A DNA stretch of 64,000 bases from Burkholderiales bacterium (GTDB taxonomy: Bacteria > Pseudomonadota > Gammaproteobacteria > Burkholderiales > Casimicrobiaceae). Of this stretch, positions 55,469-64,000 are shown piece by piece. Under the pieces are notes generated by a model. The model was not told the origin of the DNA, made no database searches, and saw only the letters and a program-made list of their open reading frames with translations. Position 1 is the stretch's first letter; each line of letters begins with the position of its first letter. The translations under genes and the position numbers were made by a program. The stretch is taken from assembly GCA_905339295.1 (NCBI GenBank), contig CAJPFI010000022.1, forward strand, positions 1 to 64,000. Reading direction: 5' to 3'.

Positions 55469-56363
55469 ATGTTCTCGTTCGTCGTCTGCAGCGTCGACGC
55501 CGCGAAGCTGGCGGTGATGAAGCCAAGCCTGGCCGCCTGTGCCGGCAGCGGACGCTACGAAGTCGTGGACATCGACGACGCTCCTTCGCTCTGCGCCGGC
55601 TGGACGCGAGGACTCGAGCGCGCGGCGGGCGATCCGGTCGTGTTCTGCCATGACGACATCAGCTTCGTCGTGCCGGACCTCCTCGCCCGTATTGCACGAC
55701 ATCTCGAGCGCTTCGACGTCGTCGGCGTCGTAGGCACGGACCGCTGTGCGGGCGCGGACTGGTCGGAGGCCCGGATCGAGCACGCGTACGGCGCCATCGT
55801 TCACGACCGGGGCCGTTCGCCCGACTTCTGCTTCTACGGTGCGGGGGCGGACGCGGTGGCAGACGCCGTCGGCGGCATCCAGGCGATGGACGGCGTGTTG
55901 CTCGCGGCGAGGCGCGCCGCCGCCGAGCGCATCGGCTTCGACGCCGCGACGTTCGACGGCTGGCATGGCCATGACGCGGACTTCACGTTCCGAGCGCGCC
56001 TCGCCGGCCTTCGGCTCGGCGTCGCGCTCGACCCCCGATCGTGCATCGCTCGATGGGGCGCGATGACAGGCGATGCAGCGCCACCACCGGCGTTTCGCGG
56101 AAAAACATGCCTCGAGCCTGACTCCGGGATGCGGGCCGCGGGTCGACGCGTGCATCCCGATCACTGTGCCCGACGGCATCGGTGCCGCCTTCGACCGCGC
56201 GAACCTCGACCGCCTGCACGCGTGGTCGCGCGACGAGGCCCGGCGTCGCCGGCTTGCGGCCGAGCGGCCGCACGCTGCCGGGCGCAACGACTCGTGCCAC
56301 TGTGGCGGCCGGCTTCGGTACAACGGGTGCCACGGAGGGCAGCGTTCCGCGTCGGCGCGGTAG
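55469..56363 (+). pseudogene. StrF-like glycosyltransferase with SEC-C motif, frameshifted
   Basis: A paralogue of the gene at 57780, broken by a frameshift at about 56070-56078. Residues 1-200 read MFSFVVCSVDAAKLAVMKPSL, DPVVFCHDDISFVVPDLLARIARHLERFDVVGVVGTDRC and ADFTFRARLAGLRLGVALDPRS in one frame. The alignment with the paralogue then continues only in the frame ending at 56363: HHRRFAEKHASSL, and a SEC-C zinc motif NDSCHCGGRLRYNGCHG (C-x-C-x8-C-H). The intact protein would be about 300 residues. Because of the shift, the first frame runs without a stop into dnaB. It could be a real mutation, a sequencing error, or a weakly used frameshift. Confidence 0.75.
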
Positions 56364-56389
56364 AATCAACCTCCCGCTGGGCCCCCGCG

Positions 56390-57757
56390 ATGCCCGATCA
56401 CGCCGACGTCGACACGCTGCGCCTGCCGCCGCACTCCCTCGAGGCCGAGCAGTCGGTGCTCGGCGGCCTGCTGCTCGACAACGAGGCCGCCGACCGGATC
56501 GGCGACGTCGTCTCGGCCGTCGATTTCTACAGCGAGGCGCACCGGGTCATCTTCGACCACGCCGTGCGGCTGATCGCCGAGGCGAAGCCGGCGGATGCCG
56601 TCACGCTCGCCGAGTCGCTCGCCTCCGCCGGGAAGCTCGATCACGTCGGCGGGCTCGCCTACCTGGGCGCGCTCGTCCAGGGCGTGCCGACCGCCGCGAA
56701 CGTCCGCCACTACGCGCAGATCGTGCGCGACCGCTCGGTGCTGCGCCAGCTCGCGTCCACGGCCGCCGAGATCGCCGAGTCCGCCTACCAGCCGAGGGGG
56801 CGCAACGCGTCGCAGCTGCTCGACGAGGCGGAGACGCGGGTGATGCACATCGCCGAGGCGGGCGCGCGCGGGCGCAAGCAGTACGCGAAGCTCGGCGACC
56901 TGCTCGCCGGCGTCGTCGAGCGCATCGAGGAGCTGTTCAACCGCGAGCACCCCGACGACGTCACCGGGATCGCCACCGGCTTCACCGATCTCGACCGGAT
57001 GACCGCGGGGCTGCAGGCGGGCGACCTGGTGATCGTCGCCGGCCGCCCGTCGATGGGAAAGACCGCGCTCGCCGTCAACATCGGCGAGCACGTCGCGCTC
57101 GAATCGAAGCGTCCGGTCGCGATCTTCTCGATGGAGATGGGCGCGCACCAGCTCGCGCTGCGCCTGATCGGCTCGGTGGGCCGGCTGCCGTCGCAGAGCC
57201 TGCGCACCGGACGGCTGCAGGCCGAGGACTGGACGCGGCTGTCGAGCGCGCTCGGCCGGCTCAACGACGCGCCGATCCTGATCGACGAAACGCCGGCGCT
57301 CACGGTGATGGAGCTGCGTTCGCGCGCGCGGCGCATCGCCCGCGCGCACTCGCCGCTCGGCCTCATCATCGTCGACTACCTGCAGCTGATGCAGGCGTCC
57401 TCGATGGGCGAGAACCGGGCGACCGAGATCTCGGAGATCTCGCGGTCGCTGAAGGCGCTCGCGAAGGAGCTGCAGGTTCCGGTGATGGCGCTGTCGCAGC
57501 TCAATCGCTCGCTCGAGCAGCGGCCGAACAAGCGGCCGGTGATGAGCGACCTCCGGGAATCGGGCGCGATCGAGCAGGACGCCGACGTGATCCTGTTCAT
57601 CTACCGCGACGAGGTCTACAACCAGGACACGCCGGACAAGGGCGTGGCCGAGATCATCATCGGAAAGCAGCGCAACGGGCCGATCGGCACGGTGCGGCTC
57701 ACCTTCCTCGGCGAGTACACGCGCTTCGAGAACTTCGCGGCGCCGGGCTCGTACTGA
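56390..57757 (+). CDS. dnaB: Replicative DNA helicase DnaB
   Basis: A 455-residue helicase (E. coli 471). N-terminal DnaG-interacting domain (LPPHSLEAEQSVLGGLLLDNEAADRIGDVVSAVDFY), linker, then the RecA-like domain with Walker A VAGRPSMGKTALAVN, LFIYRDEVYNQDTP near the end and LIIVDYLQLMQ (Walker B). ATG 56390 follows a TAGAAT -10-like element (56361-56366). It lies between two SEC-C glycosyltransferase paralogues, an unusual position, since dnaB normally follows rplI directly. Confidence 0.97.
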   Translation: MPDHADVDTLRLPPHSLEAEQSVLGGLLLDNEAADRIGDVVSAVDFYSEAHRVIFDHAVRLIAEAKPADAVTLAESLASAGKLDHVGGLAYLGALVQGVPTAANVRHYAQIVRDRSVLRQLASTAAEIAESAYQPRGRNASQLLDEAETRVMHIAEAGARGRKQYAKLGDLLAGVVERIEELFNREHPDDVTGIATGFTDLDRMTAGLQAGDLVIVAGRPSMGKTALAVNIGEHVALESKRPVAIFSMEMGAHQLALRLIGSVGRLPSQSLRTGRLQAEDWTRLSSALGRLNDAPILIDETPALTVMELRSRARRIARAHSPLGLIIVDYLQLMQASSMGENRATEISEISRSLKALAKELQVPVMALSQLNRSLEQRPNKRPVMSDLRESGAIEQDADVILFIYRDEVYNQDTPDKGVAEIIIGKQRNGPIGTVRLTFLGEYTRFENFAAPGSY

Positions 57758-57779
57758 CGATTCCGCGCCGCGCGCCGAC

Positions 57780-58742
57780 ATGCTCTCGTTCGTGATCAAC
57801 AGCATCGACCCGGCGAAGTTCGCCGCCGTCGGCGCCACCATCACGCGGGCGACGGGCGGCGCGCGCTTCGAGATCGTCGGCATCCACGACGCGAAGTCGA
57901 TGTGCGACGGGTACCGGCGCGGACTCGCGATGACCCGCGGCGATCCGGTCGTGTTCTGTCACGACGACATCGAGCTGCTGATGACGGACCTTCCCGCGCG
58001 CCTCGCGCGCCATCGGGAGCGGTTCGACCTCTTCGCGCCGGTGGGGACGCGCAAGCTGGTCTCGATGAATTGGGCGGACGCCGGGGCGGAGCACCTCTAC
58101 GGCGCGATGTCCGGCGAGAACCCGGACGGCACGTTCGGCACCGGGTTCTTCGGCGGCGACGCGCGCGAGATCGACGGCATCGTCGCGCTCGAGGGCGTCT
58201 TCATCGTCGCGCGGCGCGACGCGGCGCTCGCGGTCGGCTGGGACGCCGAGACGTTCGACGACTGGCACGGCTACGACGCCGATTTCAGCTTCCGCGCGCA
58301 CCTCGCCGGCTGGCGGGTCGGCGTGGTGCTCGATCTCGCGATCATCCACCGCTCGCGCGGGAGGAAGGATGCCGGCTACCAGCGGTCGAAGTCGCTCTTC
58401 GCGCGCAAGCACGCGGGGCGGCTTGCGCAGGGCAGCAGCGGCGTCAACGTGATCACGGGCATCGCGATGAAGGACCGCGCGGCGATCGCGGAGTTCTTCG
58501 ACCGCGGCGACCTGCGCCGATGGCACAGGGAATCGCGACTGCGCATCGACCGTGCGCGCAACTCGCCCGGCATCCGCCCGCCAGCGGGATTGATGCAGGG
58601 CGCCTGGGATCCGGCGCACGCCAAGTCGGGCGGCGCGACGCTGGTTCGGGAGCCGCCGACGCGCAACGGGGCGTGCCCCTGCGGCAGCGGCAAGCGTTAC
58701 CGGGAATGCCACGGTGCCGCCGGCGCGGGCGAGCGCCGCTAG
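57780..58742 (+). CDS. StrF-like glycosyltransferase with C-terminal SEC-C motif
   Basis: A 320-residue protein, intact paralogue of the frameshifted gene at 55469. MLSFVINSIDPAKFAAVGATI, FEIVGIHDAKSMCDGYRRGLAMTRGDPVVFCHDDIELLMTDLPARLARH is the StrF-type (Glyco_tranf_2_5) GT-A start, with H-D-D as the metal motif. DFSFRAHLAGWRVGVVLDLAIIHRS and FARKHAGRL follow. C-terminal residues 296-312 form the SEC-C zinc knuckle NGACPCGSGKRYRECHG (Cys299, Cys301, Cys310, His311). A GT-A fused to a SEC-C is uncommon. The sugar donor is unknown. Confidence 0.85.
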   Translation: MLSFVINSIDPAKFAAVGATITRATGGARFEIVGIHDAKSMCDGYRRGLAMTRGDPVVFCHDDIELLMTDLPARLARHRERFDLFAPVGTRKLVSMNWADAGAEHLYGAMSGENPDGTFGTGFFGGDAREIDGIVALEGVFIVARRDAALAVGWDAETFDDWHGYDADFSFRAHLAGWRVGVVLDLAIIHRSRGRKDAGYQRSKSLFARKHAGRLAQGSSGVNVITGIAMKDRAAIAEFFDRGDLRRWHRESRLRIDRARNSPGIRPPAGLMQGAWDPAHAKSGGATLVREPPTRNGACPCGSGKRYRECHGAAGAGERR

Positions 58743-58923
58743 AATCACGCCGACGTCCGTCCCGCTTCGCGCGAATGACACTCCTCCGGCCGACCCGCGT
58801 CGCCGTCGATCGAGCGATCGAGGGCGATCGCGCGCGTCCCGGTGCGCCGGGCCGGGCCGCACCGGCAACGCCCGACGCGCTCGGCGCGCGGTCGTCGTGC
58901 GCCGCGCCTGGCGCCTTCGTCGC

Positions 58924-59790
58924 ATGAGCGCGACCGTCGCGGCGCCGGCCTCGCGCAATGCCCCCTGTCCTTGCGGCAGCGGGCGGCGCTACAAGGAATG
59001 CCACGGCCGGCCGTCGGCACCGGCCGCGCGGACGGCGGCGGTGGACGACGCGACCGCCGAGCGTCTCCATGCCGCGCTCGCCGCGCAGCAGGGCGGCCGG
59101 GTCGCCGAGGCGATCGCGATCTACGACGACGTCATCGCCCGGGTCCCGGCGATCTTCGACGCGTGGCACATGCGAGGCGTCGCCCACTTCCAGCTGATGG
59201 AGTTCGACGCGGCGGAGCGGGACATCCGGCGCACGCTCGACCTCCGGCCCGACCTGTTCGCGGCGCGCAACAACCTGTCGCTCGTGCTCGAGGGCAGGCG
59301 CATCGCCAGGCAGGAGGCGGCGCTGTGTCGCGAGACGTTGCCGCGCTACGGGCCGCTGCTGGCGGATCCGCCGCTGTCCCCGTTCGATGGCACCGGTGCC
59401 GGCACGCGTGTCTTCGTGCTGGGCGCAGGCGCGCGCGCCGGGCTGGTCGAGGCGCTCGTGCGCGATGCGGCCGCGCGCGGCGCCGACGTGACGACGATCG
59501 CGGTGGGCGACGGGCGCGCGATCGAAGGCGACGAGGCGGCCAGGCTGGCCGCGACGTCCGGGCGCGATGTCGTCGTCTGCGCCGGGTGCGCGCGGCCGCT
59601 GGGAGACTGGACGCTCGACGCCAGGCCCGGCGTGACCGCGCTCGTGTGCGACGGCGCGGACCTCGCGTCGTTCATCGACCGGCTGCGCGAGGTTTCCGGG
59701 CAGGCCCGCAGGCGGGTGCGCGTCGCGGTCGCCGCGGACGCCTCGATCGACCTGCGCCCGCTGCCGCACGTGCGGAGCGACGCATGGTAG
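58924..59790 (+). CDS. SEC-C/TPR protein
   Basis: A 288-residue protein. Residues 12-28 are a SEC-C motif (Cys15, Cys17, Cys26, His27) in RNAPCPCGSGRRYKECHG. One or two TPR repeats follow (about 55-125: RVAEAIAIYDDVIARVPAIFDAWHMRGVAHFQLMEFDAAERDIRRTLDLRPDLFAARNNLSL). The C-terminus looks like a Rossmann/GT-B-like fragment (TRVFVLGAGARAGLVEALV, VVVCAGCARPLG). Overlaps the next gene's ATG by seven bases. Same SEC-C position and TPR order as the protein at 62545. The 181 bases before it (58743-58923) hold nothing recognisable. Confidence 0.82.
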   Translation: MSATVAAPASRNAPCPCGSGRRYKECHGRPSAPAARTAAVDDATAERLHAALAAQQGGRVAEAIAIYDDVIARVPAIFDAWHMRGVAHFQLMEFDAAERDIRRTLDLRPDLFAARNNLSLVLEGRRIARQEAALCRETLPRYGPLLADPPLSPFDGTGAGTRVFVLGAGARAGLVEALVRDAAARGADVTTIAVGDGRAIEGDEAARLAATSGRDVVVCAGCARPLGDWTLDARPGVTALVCDGADLASFIDRLREVSGQARRRVRVAVAADASIDLRPLPHVRSDAW

Positions 59791-61787
59791 GCGCAGCGGG
59801 TCGCGGCGACGCGCCGGTGCGCGCGATCGCGTTCTACCTTCCGCAGTTCCACCGGATTCCCGAGAACGACCGCTGGTGGGGCGAGGGTTTCACCGAGTGG
59901 ACCAACGTGCGGCGCGCCAGGCCGCTATTCCCGGGACACGAGCAGCCGAAGGCGCCCGGCGCGCTCGGATGGTACGACCTCACCGAACCCGGCGTCGCCG
60001 AGCGGCAGGCGGCGCTAGCCCGCGAGCACGGCCTGCACGGATTCTGCTACTACTTCTACTGGTTCAACGGCAAGCGTCTGCTCGAGCGCCCGCTCGAGGC
60101 GATGCTCGCGCGCGGCACGCCCGACTTCCCGTTCTGCGTATGCTGGGCCAACGAGAACTGGACGCGTCGCTGGGACGGCCGCGAGCAGGACGTGCTCATG
60201 GCGCAGCACTACAGCGCCGAGGACGGCGTGCGCCTGTTCGACGAGTTCCTGCGGCTGTTCCGCGACCCGCGCTACATCCGGGTCGACGGCCGCCCGCTGC
60301 TGCTCGTCTACAAGGCCTCGCTCATCCCCGACGTCGCGCGGATCACCGCGATCTGGCGCGAGCGCGCCGCCGCGTCGGGCGTCGCCGAGCCCTATCTCGT
60401 GTACTGCGAGACCGGGGAGCCGACGGATCCGCCGTCGCTGGGCTTCGATGCGTCGGTCGAGTTCCCGCCGCACCGGCACCATGCGCACTGGCTCAACGCG
60501 CAGGTGCGGGGCCTCGATCCGGGCTACACCGGCATGCTGACGAGCTATCGCGCGCTCGTCGCGCAGTCCGTGTCGCGTGACGTCTCCGGCGCGAGACGGC
60601 TGCGCTGCGTCGCGCCTTCCTGGGACAACACCGCGCGGCAGGGGCTGCGCGGCACGGTGTTCGTCGGGTCGAGCCCCGAGCTCTTCGGCTACTGGGTCGA
60701 GACGATGGTGCGCGACACGCGGCGCCGCCTCGACGGCGACGAGCGGCTCCTGTTCGTGAACGCCTGGAACGAGTGGGCGGAAGGCTGCTGCCTCGAGCCC
60801 GACGCGCGGTACGGGACGCAGTACCTCGAGGCGCTGCACGCCGGCCTCGCCGCCGGGGCCCGGCTCCCGGTCGTCTCGCTCGAGCGGCCGCGGTTCCGCG
60901 ATGTCGTGCGCGACACGCGAGCCGAGATCGATGCCGGGGAACTCGTCGTCGCGCGTCACGGCGCGACGCCGGAGGACGGCGCGCACGGCGTGTCGGTGGT
61001 GATGCCCGTCTACAACCACGAGCGCTACCTCGGGCGCGCGCTCGCCTCGCTCGCCGCCCAGACGCTCGCGCCGTGCGAGCTCGTGGCGGTCGACGACGGC
61101 TCGAGCGATGCCGGCGACGCGGTGATCGAGCGGTTCGCGCGCACGGCGCCGTTCCCGGTGACGCTCGCGCGGCAGCGCAATCGCGGCGCGCACGTCGCGC
61201 TCAACCGCGGGCTGGCGCTCGCGCGCGGACGGACGATCGCGCTCCTCAACTCGGACGACGAGTTCCACCCGCGCCGCCTCGAGCGCCTGTCCGCCGTGCT
61301 GGACGACGCCACCGGGTTCGCGTTCTCCGACGCCGAGCTGATCGACGACGAGGGCAGGCCGGCGCACGGCGCGGACGCCGATTCGCTGCGCGCGGCGATC
61401 GCACGCGCGAACGCGCATGCCACGATCGTGGAAACGCTGCTCGCGCGGAACGTCGCGATCTCGACGGGGAACTTCATGTTCGGGCGGGCGCTGCTCGACG
61501 CGATCGGCGGATTCGCGGCGCTGGAGATCTGCCACGACTGGGACTTCGTCCTCGCGGCGACACGGCATACCCGCGTGCTTCGCGTGGCCGAGCCGCTGTA
61601 TCGCTATCGGCTGCACGGCGGGAACACCGTGACGATGCGCGTGTTCACGGGCCTGATGGACGTCGAGCGGCTGCTGCGCCGTTTCCTCGCGACGCTGCCG
61701 ACCCATCCGCGGGTCGACGACCTCGCGCGCGCGCGAATCCACGACCAGGTCGAGGACCGGGGTCAGAAAGGCCTGATGCCGGCATGA
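59784..61787 (+). CDS. WbsX-type glycosyltransferase fused to a GT2 domain
   Basis: A 667-residue bifunctional protein. Residues about 10-355 are the WbsX/Glyco_tran_WbsX domain: AIAFYLPQFHRIPENDRWWGEGFTEWTNVRRARPLFPGHEQPKAP, GFCYYFYWFNGKRLLERPLEAML, FCVCWANENWTRRWDGREQDVLMAQHY and LFVNAWNEWAEGCCLEPD. Residues about 400-640 are a GT2: VSVVMPVYNHERYLGRALASLAAQTLAP, ELVAVDDGSSD, LLNSDDEFHPRRLE and FMFGRALLDAIGGFAALEICHDWDFVLAAT. WbsX domains occur in O-antigen/capsule clusters. The fusion suggests two successive sugar transfers. Overlaps both neighbours. Confidence 0.9.
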   Translation: MVGAAGRGDAPVRAIAFYLPQFHRIPENDRWWGEGFTEWTNVRRARPLFPGHEQPKAPGALGWYDLTEPGVAERQAALAREHGLHGFCYYFYWFNGKRLLERPLEAMLARGTPDFPFCVCWANENWTRRWDGREQDVLMAQHYSAEDGVRLFDEFLRLFRDPRYIRVDGRPLLLVYKASLIPDVARITAIWRERAAASGVAEPYLVYCETGEPTDPPSLGFDASVEFPPHRHHAHWLNAQVRGLDPGYTGMLTSYRALVAQSVSRDVSGARRLRCVAPSWDNTARQGLRGTVFVGSSPELFGYWVETMVRDTRRRLDGDERLLFVNAWNEWAEGCCLEPDARYGTQYLEALHAGLAAGARLPVVSLERPRFRDVVRDTRAEIDAGELVVARHGATPEDGAHGVSVVMPVYNHERYLGRALASLAAQTLAPCELVAVDDGSSDAGDAVIERFARTAPFPVTLARQRNRGAHVALNRGLALARGRTIALLNSDDEFHPRRLERLSAVLDDATGFAFSDAELIDDEGRPAHGADADSLRAAIARANAHATIVETLLARNVAISTGNFMFGRALLDAIGGFAALEICHDWDFVLAATRHTRVLRVAEPLYRYRLHGGNTVTMRVFTGLMDVERLLRRFLATLPTHPRVDDLARARIHDQVEDRGQKGLMPA

Positions 61788-62548
61788 CGGACACCGTGCC
61801 CGGCGCGTCGACGGCGCGTCCCGTCTGGTGGACGCACCTCGCGGCCGAGGCGCCGATCGACGACGCGTATCACGCGACCGCGCGCGTCGAGATCGCGAGC
61901 TTCTTCGACGCCCCGCCCGGGCTGGTCGTCGACGTGGGTTGCGGCGCGGGCGCGACCGGCCGCCTGCTCAAGCAGAAGTTCCCAGGCACGCGCGTCGTCG
62001 GCGTCGAGCGCAACCCGCGCGCGGCCGCGATCGCGCGCACCAACCTCGACGCCGTCGCCTGCGCCGACCTCGCGGACGTGCGTCTCGACGAGCTCCTGGG
62101 CGGGCAGCCGGTGGGCGCGCTGCTGCTGCTCGACGTCCTCGAGCATCTCGTCGATCCGTGGCGCGCGCTCCTCGCATTGCGCCGGTGGCTCGCACCGTCG
62201 TCCCGCGTGCTCGCCAGCGTGCCCAACGTCCGCAACCTGCTGACACTCGAGCAGCTTGCGTCGGGTCGCTTCGAGTACGAGGCGAGCGGCGTGCTGGACG
62301 TCACGCACCTCCGGTTCTTCACGCGACCGACGCTTCGGCGCATGTTCGAGGAGACCGGCTTCGAGGTCGTGTCGATCGAGCCGCTGCTCCACCCGGCGCC
62401 GGACGAGCTCTCGGTCGAGCGCGGGGCGGGGTGGGTGCGCACGCGCGGCCTCGCGATACGCTGCGCGACGCTTTCCGACCTCGAGGACCTGCACGCGTTC
62501 CAGTTCGTCGTCGACGCCCGGCCGTCGGGCAGCGAGCCGCTCGCGTGA
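61784..62548 (+). CDS. Class I SAM-dependent methyltransferase
   Basis: A 254-residue methyltransferase whose ATG overlaps the preceding stop. VVDVGCGAGATGRLLKQKFPGTRVVGVERNPRAA is motif I and post-I, LLLLDVLEHLVDPWRALLALRRWLAP is motif II/III, then SVPNVRNLLTLEQLASGRFEYEASGVLDVTHLRFFT, frequent in sugar-cluster methyltransferases of the UbiE/Methyltransf_23 type. Probably methylates a sugar or lipid in the glycan pathway. Confidence 0.92.
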   Translation: MTDTVPGASTARPVWWTHLAAEAPIDDAYHATARVEIASFFDAPPGLVVDVGCGAGATGRLLKQKFPGTRVVGVERNPRAAAIARTNLDAVACADLADVRLDELLGGQPVGALLLLDVLEHLVDPWRALLALRRWLAPSSRVLASVPNVRNLLTLEQLASGRFEYEASGVLDVTHLRFFTRPTLRRMFEETGFEVVSIEPLLHPAPDELSVERGAGWVRTRGLAIRCATLSDLEDLHAFQFVVDARPSGSEPLA

Positions 62549-64000
62549 ACGCCGCCGCCGCGGCGCCGGTGTCGCGCAACGCGCCGTGCCCGTGCGGGAG
62601 CGGGCGTCGCTTCCGCGACTGTCACGGCGCCATCGCGGTCCCCGGGGCGACGCCGCCGCCGCGCGCCGAGGCGACCTACCGGCCAGGCGGTTCCGAGTGG
62701 GATGACGTCGATCCGGCCGGCCGGGCGCGCCTCGCCGCGATGATGGAGTCCGCGCTCGCGCGGCAGGCCGTCAACGACCAGGCCGGCGCCGAGGGGCTCT
62801 ACCGCGCCGTCCTGGCGGTCGCGCCACGTACGCACGATGCGCTGCACATGCTGGCCGTGGCGCGATGGGGTCTCGGCGATCTCGACGACGCGTGGCGGCT
62901 GATCGAGCGCGCGCTCGACCTGCGCGAGCCGGATCCCGCCATCCTCGCGAACCGGGCCACGCTGCAACGCGCGCGCGAGCACCGGGCGCGGATCGATGCC
63001 GGGAAGCGGGAGAAATCGGCCATGGCGGGCCTGCTCGCGACACTCGCGTCGCGCGTGCCCGCGGGCGCGGAGCGCGTGCCGCTGGCGCCGGGGGAACCGC
63101 TCCACGTGATCCTCGGCACCATCGATCCCGGCGACGATGCCGCCTGGCTCGCGAATCGGCTGGTCCGGGTTCTCGCGCCATGGAACCCGATGGCGTGGGT
63201 CCTCGACAGGTCGATGTGCGCCTCCGCGCCGGTCGGCGCGCACGTCCTCCGGCCCGGACTCGGCGCGATTCCGGCCGGCGGCGTGCACGTTCACGTCGGC
63301 CTCGATCTCGTCGGCGAAATGGACTGGCTTGCGCGCGCGTCGCCGAGCCGCGTCGTTGCGATGGGCGTGCGTGCACGCACGGCCGACTGGCTCGCCGGAC
63401 TCGCGAAGCTCGCCCGCGATGGCGCCGTGCCGCTGCTCCCGGTGTTCCTCACCTCCGCGCAGGCATCCCGATTCGGGGTGGACGGCCCGACGCTGCCGTG
63501 CCTCGAGGCCGGCCTTCCCGGCCCGCCTGCGCGGGGTGCGCGACGCTGGACGCTCGGCGTCGTCGCCGGGAACCGGCAGGCGCTCGAGGCCGTTCCCGAC
63601 GGCCCCCTTCTGCGGCGGATTGCCACGCGCGGGATCGCGGTGGCGATCCGCGATCCGGGACGCTTGCGCTTCCAACTCGGCGACCTTCCGGACGTGCGCT
63701 TCGAGCCGCGCGACGCCCGATCGGTCGAAGCGTTCGTCGCCTCGGTCGACGCATTGCTCGTTCCGGCGCGGCGCTGGCACGACGAGGGACTCGAGCGGGA
63801 AGTCGCGCTCGCGCTCGGGTCGGGTCGCCCGGTCGTCGTGCGACGCCCGTCGATCCACGCGCCCCTCGTGCGCGAGGGGGTCGACGGCCGGATCGTGCGC
63901 GGCGACGACGAGGCGCTCGAAGCGGTCTGCTCGCTCGCGCGCGACGATCTCGCGCCGGACCGGACCCCTCGCGCGTCGACGGAGGCGTTGCTCGAGTCGG
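62545..64000 (+). CDS. SEC-C/TPR protein with GT-B-like region (partial, runs off the end)
   Basis: At least 485 codons from a GTG that overlaps the preceding stop (GTGA); the frame is open to the window end. Residues 12-28 are a SEC-C motif identical in spacing to the protein at 58924 (Cys15, Cys17, Cys26, His27). TPR helices follow (about 70-130: QAVNDQAGAEGLYRAVLAVAPRTHDALHMLAVARWGLGDLDDAWRLIERALDL). The C-terminal part resembles a GT-B glycosyltransferase: VDALLVPARRWHDEGLEREVALALGSGRPVVVRRPSIHAPLVREGVDGRIVRGDDEALEAV. It is the larger form of a SEC-C/TPR/glycosyltransferase family, of which the 58924 gene may be a shorter member. Confidence 0.8.
   Translation, partial: MNAAAAAPVSRNAPCPCGSGRRFRDCHGAIAVPGATPPPRAEATYRPGGSEWDDVDPAGRARLAAMMESALARQAVNDQAGAEGLYRAVLAVAPRTHDALHMLAVARWGLGDLDDAWRLIERALDLREPDPAILANRATLQRAREHRARIDAGKREKSAMAGLLATLASRVPAGAERVPLAPGEPLHVILGTIDPGDDAAWLANRLVRVLAPWNPMAWVLDRSMCASAPVGAHVLRPGLGAIPAGGVHVHVGLDLVGEMDWLARASPSRVVAMGVRARTADWLAGLAKLARDGAVPLLPVFLTSAQASRFGVDGPTLPCLEAGLPGPPARGARRWTLGVVAGNRQALEAVPDGPLLRRIATRGIAVAIRDPGRLRFQLGDLPDVRFEPRDARSVEAFVASVDALLVPARRWHDEGLEREVALALGSGRPVVVRRPSIHAPLVREGVDGRIVRGDDEALEAVCSLARDDLAPDRTPRASTEALLES

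Follow-up and report, generated by a model that had tools for sequence, protein, structure and literature searches.

The stretch analysed here, below called the window, comprises bases 1-64000 of the 66,431-bp contig CAJPFI010000022.1 from a member of the Burkholderiales (family Casimicrobiaceae) with a 4.03-Mb genome, 98% complete. Appended to its rpsF-rplI-dnaB operon is a cluster of glycan genes, several of which encode the SEC-C motif known from SecA, and these SEC-C enzymes and their relatives are the subject of this study. In one Burkholderiales lineage, SEC-C is repeatedly joined to unrelated sugar- or sulfate-adding enzymes. A first-pass annotation of the window had reported four proteins with a common C-x-C-x8-C-H motif. 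Four strict motifs were found, all on the + strand and within 6.3 kb (first Cys at 56295, 58674, 58966, and 62587), and a six-frame search of the window revealed no further ones. Since none turned up in 30 random sequences of equal length drawn from a first-order Markov model, a chance origin of the motifs was rejected. Judged from the sequence, the putative metal-ligand residues are present in the window motifs. Three of the four exceeded the Pfam cut-off for SEC-C (20.4 bits); the fourth, behind the glycosyltransferase gene GTa, scored below it and is degenerate and out of frame, and for this one the four-protein description fails.

The gene cluster behind rplI and dnaB

The intact part of the cluster lies on the + strand and starts with GTb (57780..58742), a glycosyltransferase with a PF13712 match (4.3e-15; 56.4 bits against a cut-off of 27) and a C-terminal SEC-C (PF02810, 7.6e-6) at 58662..58715 (30.1 bits). 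Among 35 aligned sequences, residues H61, D62, D63, D166, D168, and others are invariant. It is followed by a protein of 288 amino acids (58924..59790) that combines SEC-C (PF02810, 5.8e-9; 58954..59010, 40.1 bits) with tetratricopeptide repeats (TPR_16, 1.4e-6). A fusion of WbsX and GT2 domains without a SEC-C of its own (59784..61787; PF14307, 1.9e-133; PF00535, 3.4e-26) begins, as read from the sequence, with an ATG at 59784 that overlaps the stop of the preceding gene. Next come a SAM-dependent methyltransferase of 254 amino acids (61784..62548; PF13489, 1.7e-18) and a protein of 503 amino acids (62545..64056) with SEC-C (PF02810, 8.1e-8; 62575..62628, 37.1 bits), TPRs (TPR_14, 0.0011), and a GT-B-like part (PF13692, 4.7e-5). 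The TPR models in the window proteins score under Pfam's own cut-offs. Sequence obtained beyond base 64000 places the stop of the last gene at 64056, and the overlap of the last four genes described earlier was confirmed (58924-59790, 59784-61787, 61784-62548, and 62545-64056). Two proteins had been described as TPR/GT-B-like with N-terminal SEC-C; SEC-C and TPRs hold for both, but the 58924 protein gave no GT-B match in the Pfam scan, only SEC-C and TPR, and the GT1 match of the 62545 protein is weak (PF13692, 24.1 bits, under the cut-off of 27). Pfam scans detected no SecA DEAD motor or preprotein domain in the SEC-C proteins of the window, and neither a UPF0149 domain (PF03695) nor a GT41 domain (PF13844) in the window proteins.

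The two StrF-type glycosyltransferases with C-terminal SEC-C that had been described both match PF13712, and GTb is intact, but GTa is disrupted. Its first frame piece (55469..56032, +; PF13712, 4.8e-13) breaks off after 56032, and the remainder (56035..56363, +) occupies two further frames, one from 56035 to 56085 and one from 56091 to the stop at 56361-56363. Alignment by tblastn to three intact relatives placed the shifts between 56032/56035 and 56085/56091 and ruled out 55469 as one intact SEC-C glycosyltransferase; the 762-amino-acid open reading frame (ORF) listed for this start extends into dnaB. The motif behind GTa, CHCGGRLRYNGCHG, lies at about 56283-56339 (+), is degenerate, has no Pfam SEC-C match, and is reached only through two frame changes. 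In genomes G001, G004, and G015 GTa occupies a single frame with SEC-C, which is slightly altered in G001. Decay and assembly error both fit the disruption and are indistinguishable here.

The WbsX-GT2 fusion and the methyltransferase reported as interleaved with the SEC-C genes were recovered, but dnaB (56390-57757), which separates GTa from GTb, had been omitted. Upstream of GTa, by eye, are rpsF (53712), priB (54136), rpsR (54484), and rplI (54783). Past 64056, methyltransferase-like, GtrA-like, and GtrB-like genes, also named by eye, follow on the opposite strand.

The arrangement recurs in the genus. At the rplI-dnaB site a SEC-C cluster was found in 10 of 22 genus genomes, this one and nine relatives, the content of the site being settled in 18 of the 22 (all except G009, G014, G019, and G020). 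In six genomes, this one and five of the nine relatives, the site holds at least two SEC-C genes: G001, G004, and G015 have three each, G002 and G016 two each. G008, G012, and G018 have a single SEC-C gene, as does G021, where the contig is short. By eye, the interval after dnaB holds no glycan gene in G005, G006, G011, G013, and G017, and a gmd-like pair in G003, G007, and G010. The interval is thus variable within one genus (no glycan gene in five genomes, gmd-like pair in three, SEC-C cluster in ten). G016 and G002 encode the SEC-C+TPR module and WbsX+GT2 as a single protein; their fusion there and their overlapping genes here are good evidence that the two work together.

Within the host genome PF02810 gave seven matches (E up to 0.1): SecA, encoded separately at C1:61646, three within the window, and a further three located elsewhere. 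The latter are a protein of 621 amino acids on C16 with SEC-C followed by two GT2-type domains, a SEC-C+TPR+GT2 protein of 445 amino acids on C28, and a protein of 273 amino acids on C18 with C-terminal SEC-C, the rest of which has no Pfam match and looks glycosyltransferase-like by eye. Four of the six non-SecA SEC-C proteins therefore match glycosyltransferase families (the 62545 protein under the cut-off), one matches TPR (58924), and one is unmatched. SecB is encoded in this genome, and no match to flagellin (PF00669) was found in its 98% complete sequence (G000).

What the first-pass annotation observed is, then, partly confirmed, and its interpretation, a zinc module shared within one pathway, is partly supported: the sharing holds, but "one pathway" is too narrow because three more SEC-C proteins sit on three other contigs. 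A common docking partner for the SEC-C proteins, which it had suggested, is likewise what we infer.

SEC-C on unrelated transferases of the lineage

The family was surveyed in the host genome and 40 relatives, and loci were fetched for most non-SecA SEC-C matches. SEC-C is joined in this family to GT2, WbsX, GT41, GT9, GT-B, and sulfotransferase domains. In a set of 83 SEC-C proteins, which includes some SecA fragments, the commonest partner families (E up to 1e-3) were TPR_16 (40), GT2 (26), DUF5672 (14), Sulfotransfer_3 (14), GT9 (11), UPF0149 (10), and GT41 (5). After the SecA, UPF0149, and radical-SAM groups had been removed by clustering, 42 family proteins, not a random draw, were scanned singly at E-values of 0.1, 1e-3, or 1e-4; a glycosyltransferase or sulfotransferase match was obtained in 35 of them (the 62545 protein and L045:5463 under Pfam's cut-off). 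SEC-C can stand at either terminus or in the middle of the protein, in the latter case near residue 279 and behind DUF5672. GT41 (PF13844) was found at family loci L042, L098, L102, L297, and L299, and outside the family at L265 (two), L268, L273, L276, and L278. The genus also has a radical SAM and SPASM protein whose SEC-C is C-terminal (L075:5818-7185 and L088:6435-7841; PF04055, PF13186); by eye it is sulfatase-maturase-like, another enzyme possibly acting on exported proteins.

A second tandem, in which a DUF5672+SEC-C+TPR gene precedes a SEC-C+TPR gene, occurs in four genera of the family: in this genus in G004 and G015, with one or two genomes apiece in g4, g355, and g3. By Pfam the second gene is GT41 in L042, L297, and L299, and the first gene is GT9 in L298. 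Neither the two genes upstream of the L042 tandem nor L265:13288, a sugar amidotransferase by eye, had a Pfam hit. The expectation that several SEC-C genes would co-occur elsewhere was thus borne out, with two or three at the dnaB site in five of nine relatives and a tandem in four genera.

With a SEC-C+TPR profile of 12 sequences (E up to 1e-20), 47 of the 64 family genomes were positive for the module, whereas the 11 small-genome members of genus g288 gave no match. At least 40 of 399 order genomes carry it: of the 12 listed that belong to the family, 10 do, and of the 387 others, 30, which come from at least 12 other families. Among the matches listed for 397 phylum genomes none outside this genome was convincing; those starting at model position 4 or earlier were three in G000 and one, with three internal stops, in G518. 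Both scans scored no more than 11 candidates per genome, which makes the phylum negative weak and the order count a lower bound. Counts of PF02810 in 120 order genomes were, among the matches listed, too mixed with SecA for use alone. Ten SEC-C+TPR proteins from outside the family (E 1e-5) comprised six with GT41 after the TPRs, one with DUF5672, and three with TPR and SEC-C only, for which unspecific repeat-type matches were disregarded.

Conservation was assessed in two enzyme groups. In 11 DUF5672+SEC-C+TPR proteins SEC-C ranked first in conservation among 730 windows of 19 residues (0.91; flanks 0.62 and 0.53), a comparison biased in favour of SEC-C because the proteins had been recruited by it. 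For this reason an unselected test was added. A DUF5672 search of 64 family genomes, made without selection for SEC-C, returned 40 matches; SEC-C followed in register within 500 bases in 35, and G789 has the motif too, giving 36. Three genes are cut by a contig end (two in G013, one in G795). Of the 37 uncut DUF5672 proteins, which span five genera, 36 thus have SEC-C; the exception, G017:C138 with 302 amino acids, lacks the TPR and glycosyltransferase parts as well. The PF13712 enzymes gave a different picture. A scan with six GTa and GTb proteins yielded 70 homologous loci in named genomes (one glycosyltransferase ORF ends at a contig end), and apart from the genus members SJ17 and SJ753, SEC-C was present in the glycosyltransferase ORF of none of 68, one of which has a SecA-like gene in its vicinity. 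The conservation of SEC-C in homologues thus holds for the DUF5672 proteins and not for PF13712; an ancestral SEC-C was ruled out for the latter, and since 0 of 68 other homologues carry it, SEC-C was added to the PF13712 enzymes in this lineage.

Residues, charge, and tether of the SEC-C segment

In the family survey 98 motif rows, one of them false, were extracted with a pattern that demanded the ligands. Residue frequencies were determined for 70 SEC-C segments of the enzyme group; the GTa motif is among them, as is one segment that comes from another family. At positions that the search did not demand, Arg1 was present in 69, Asn2 in 67, Lys or Arg at position 12 in 69, and Lys14 in 65. 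The fourth ligand was His in 58 and Cys in 12. Mean net charge was +3.14, compared with +3.0 for SecA segments. At position 12, 67 of 70 enzyme segments have Arg, compared with Lys in 28 of 28 SecA segments (a set chosen by a check of SecA context, with the host's own SecA counted twice) and in 14 of 14 of the UPF0149 cluster; because of this difference we regard the SEC-C of the enzyme group as a separate subset. Segments from outside the family (L262-L281) frequently have Cys as fourth ligand and Lys-Lys as basic pair, compared with mostly His and [KR]-Arg within it.

An AlphaFold2 model of GTb built from 35 sequences predicts a confident GT-A fold over about residues 1-260, a linker (265-291) with a predicted local distance difference test score (pLDDT) under 50, and then a small knuckle at pLDDT of about 67-82. 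The nearest solved folds are majastridin (2QGI/2NXV; 3.7e-10, 21% identity), followed by B4GALNT1, WrtF, and polypeptide GalNAc-transferases. Majastridin likewise stems from a housekeeping operon, that of F1-ATPase by title, and its description holds no SEC-C. For the 62545 protein a model built from two sequences was of poor quality (mean pLDDT 49.7). Residues 9-29 of this protein match the SecA peptide 1ozb_I (4.9e-5), and residues 8-28 match the YchJ tail 9l6b_C (0.0032); no PDB hit was obtained with the isolated 36-residue GTb tail. In these enzymes SEC-C is a tag that is widespread in the lineage, common to many folds, conserved where tested, and tethered in the GTb model.

Candidate docking partners and known systems

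We propose that SEC-C could act as a small, flexibly tethered, metal-binding docking tag on otherwise unrelated sugar- and sulfate-transferring enzymes. By analogy with SecA and YecA, its likeliest partners would be SecB, a chaperone of protein export, and/or the ribosome in the vicinity of the exit tunnel. Enzymes docked there would meet nascent, unfolded, export-bound proteins, and modification would take place before translocation. The unit encoded in the window would consist of GTb, the SEC-C+TPR protein with WbsX-GT2, the methyltransferase, and the SEC-C+TPR+GT-B protein. Knowledge of the SEC-C family indicates that the tag probably binds metal and docks; SecB or the ribosome as its partner, and exported proteins as the substrates, are put forward more cautiously. 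Docking to SecB or the ribosome for the modification of exported proteins before export, an argument from analogy, we consider plausible but tentative. The fuller version, a Sec-coupled system of the Burkholderiales in which glycosyltransferases and sulfotransferases with a SecA knuckle would modify outer-membrane and surface proteins before translocation, with the TPRs choosing the substrates, is doubtful at present.

Several observations are consistent with an export-side partner. According to one study, the metal-binding domain (MBD) of SecA binds SecB and ribosomes, ribosome binding needs its cysteines, the SecA tail crosslinks to uL23, and the domain is conserved in many species without SecB (PMC6620043). 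Contact between SecA and SecB is described in a second source as mostly between the zinc region and an acidic surface of SecB (PMC6377645). Six of the ten SEC-C+TPR proteins scanned from other families carry GT41, to which the protein glycosyltransferases OGT, SPINDLY, and HMW1C-like enzymes owe their domain type. A gene for a TonB-dependent receptor lies directly upstream of two SEC-C genes in the same direction in G019, where it is Pfam-confirmed, and in G011, where it was judged by a same-start protein; three of these four SEC-C genes have a Sulfotransfer_3 match, one of them weak. In G058, from another family, SEC-C+TPR genes have flagellin and flhB genes at a distance of 3-6 kb. Because the PDB matches, the presence of SecB, the SecA literature, and the TonB and flagellin neighbours coincide, we favour docking to the export side, and together they suggest that the tagged enzymes may be brought to newly made proteins leaving the cell.

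Loci L045:3268-12738 and L048:4330-13892 resemble each other: in both, a pair of SEC-C genes, mostly of sulfotransferase type, comes after the gene for a TonB-dependent receptor (PF00593 in L045). Behind the pair is a TPR gene without SEC-C, which has a methyltransferase match in L045, and by eye ExbB/ExbD-like genes are near both. It is possible that these loci are receptor-modifying operons.

Other observations weigh against this proposal. Seven of the 42 singly scanned proteins have no transferase match: 58924, L009, L042:3099 (DUF5672 only), L092, L048:9508, L076, and L097. The Cys ligands of the extracted segments are no independent evidence, because the search pattern demanded them. Asp after Asn is kept in just 30 of the 70 enzyme-group segments, and because of this and of Arg at position 12 the partner may, judging from these residues, differ from that of SecA. 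By eye, some SEC-C enzymes occur in polysaccharide-like loci with WcaJ-like and multi-transmembrane genes, and the window cluster faces the GtrA/GtrB-like genes; polysaccharide as well as protein substrates are therefore indicated. Flagellin was found neither in this genome nor in 57 of the 64 family genomes, and many SEC-C genes stand alone among housekeeping genes with no exported protein evident alongside.

In a rival explanation, which takes up the first-pass model of an assembled glycosylation complex, the partner lies inside the glycan pathway, being a cluster protein or other SEC-C knuckles, and the tag assembles a polysaccharide enzyme complex with no involvement of SecB or the ribosome. 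The grouping of two or three SEC-C genes at the dnaB site (five of nine relatives) and in the DUF5672 tandem agrees with it, as do the fusion of SEC-C+TPR to WbsX-GT2 in G016 and G002, by which the module acts with that enzyme, and the Arg that sets the enzyme group apart from SecA and UPF0149. Against such a model, lone SEC-C transferase genes by eye occur after rho-like (L098) and hemL-like (L083) genes and before dapF-like genes (L292, L294, and L295). Nor was a common scaffold gene noticed across the loci, though no systematic search for one was made. We judge a pathway-internal partner rather unlikely.

Alternatively, SEC-C might be a local structural or sensing knuckle that binds zinc or iron, caps a terminus, or tunes the enzyme by metal or redox state, with no docking partner. 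By its title, a study cited in PMC8076867 (Cranford-Smith 2020a) reports iron as an in vivo ligand of SecA-like MBDs, which would suit such a role. A local knuckle is hard to reconcile with SEC-C being N-terminal, central, or C-terminal on unrelated folds and with basic residues being kept besides the ligands, and the linker predicted to be disordered in the GTb model is unlike a cap packed on one fold. We regard this explanation as unlikely. Neutral spread of a mobile SEC-C segment without function would agree with its lineage-limited, recurrent fusion to many folds and its absence from distant homologues, but it is very improbable given that SEC-C is kept in nearly all uncut DUF5672 proteins of five genera and is the most conserved segment of the 11, albeit recruitment-biased, proteins. 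An FlmG-type system that glycosylates flagellin in the cytoplasm is extremely improbable. In its favour one could cite the neighbours of the SEC-C+TPR genes in G058 and the description of FlmG as an enzyme that O-glycosylates flagellin in the cytoplasm and whose N-terminal domain binds this substrate (PMC7591256). Flagellin occurs, however, in just 7 of 64 family genomes against 47 with SEC-C+TPR, and it was ruled out as a substrate in this genome by the lack of any match in the 98% complete sequence.

Docking of tagged enzymes to SecB or the ribosome can also be set beside known systems. The C-terminal MBD of SecA (PF02810, 1OZB) has the same C-x-C-x8-C-H knuckle, mostly the same basic residues, and a flexible tether; the enzymes described here differ in lacking motor domains, in being joined to transferases, and in mostly having Arg instead of Lys at position 12. 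FlmG of Caulobacter is a cytoplasmic enzyme with an N-terminal substrate-binding part, and the SEC-C+TPR+GT41 relatives are similar in layout; unlike in that system, flagellin was not found in this genome and the window enzymes are of GT2, WbsX, and GT-B types. We know of no SEC-C in FlmG, nor in the HMW1C-type N-glycosyltransferases (NGT) or BAHT. For the latter two, a review of type 5 secretion describes modification of exported proteins in the cytoplasm before export, and it treats how and when cytoplasmic glycosyltransferases meet export substrates, chaperones, and targeting factors as an open question (PMC8151025). Structure 1OZB is the complex of the MBD with SecB (PMC6620043). YecA/AscA (UPF0149) and YchJ of E. 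coli are likewise non-SecA proteins with SecA-like MBDs, but they are not transferases, and UPF0149 genes are separate in this genus. YecA has been proposed as a SecB-interacting chaperone in a Sec review, which considers many further accessory components possible among proteins with SecA-like MBDs (PMC8076867). MSMEG_1285 of mycobacteria, the orthologue of Rv0613c, combines SEC-C with TPR, and its deletion alters the surface exposure of HBHA; it belongs to a different phylum, and the available text on it describes no glycosyltransferase domain (PMC6032435). No description of SEC-C-tagged glycan enzymes was found in the open-access literature; subscription papers may hold more. Enzymes with the docking knuckle of SecA make both questions, how such enzymes meet their substrates and which accessory components serve Sec, directly testable through a 20-residue tag. 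Should the partner prove to be a different one, SEC-C would still be a portable tag common to many unrelated glycan enzymes of one bacterial lineage.

The dnaB genes of the genus vary as well. In G003, G005, G006, G013, and G017 (loci L043, L050, L079, and L095 among them) dnaB has an in-frame interruption at about residue 391, and some of these genes are interrupted additionally at about residue 224. The inserts in G017 and G005 match Intein_splicing and LAGLIDADG_3. The window dnaB has no insert, so that two intein sites differ in occupancy within one genus.

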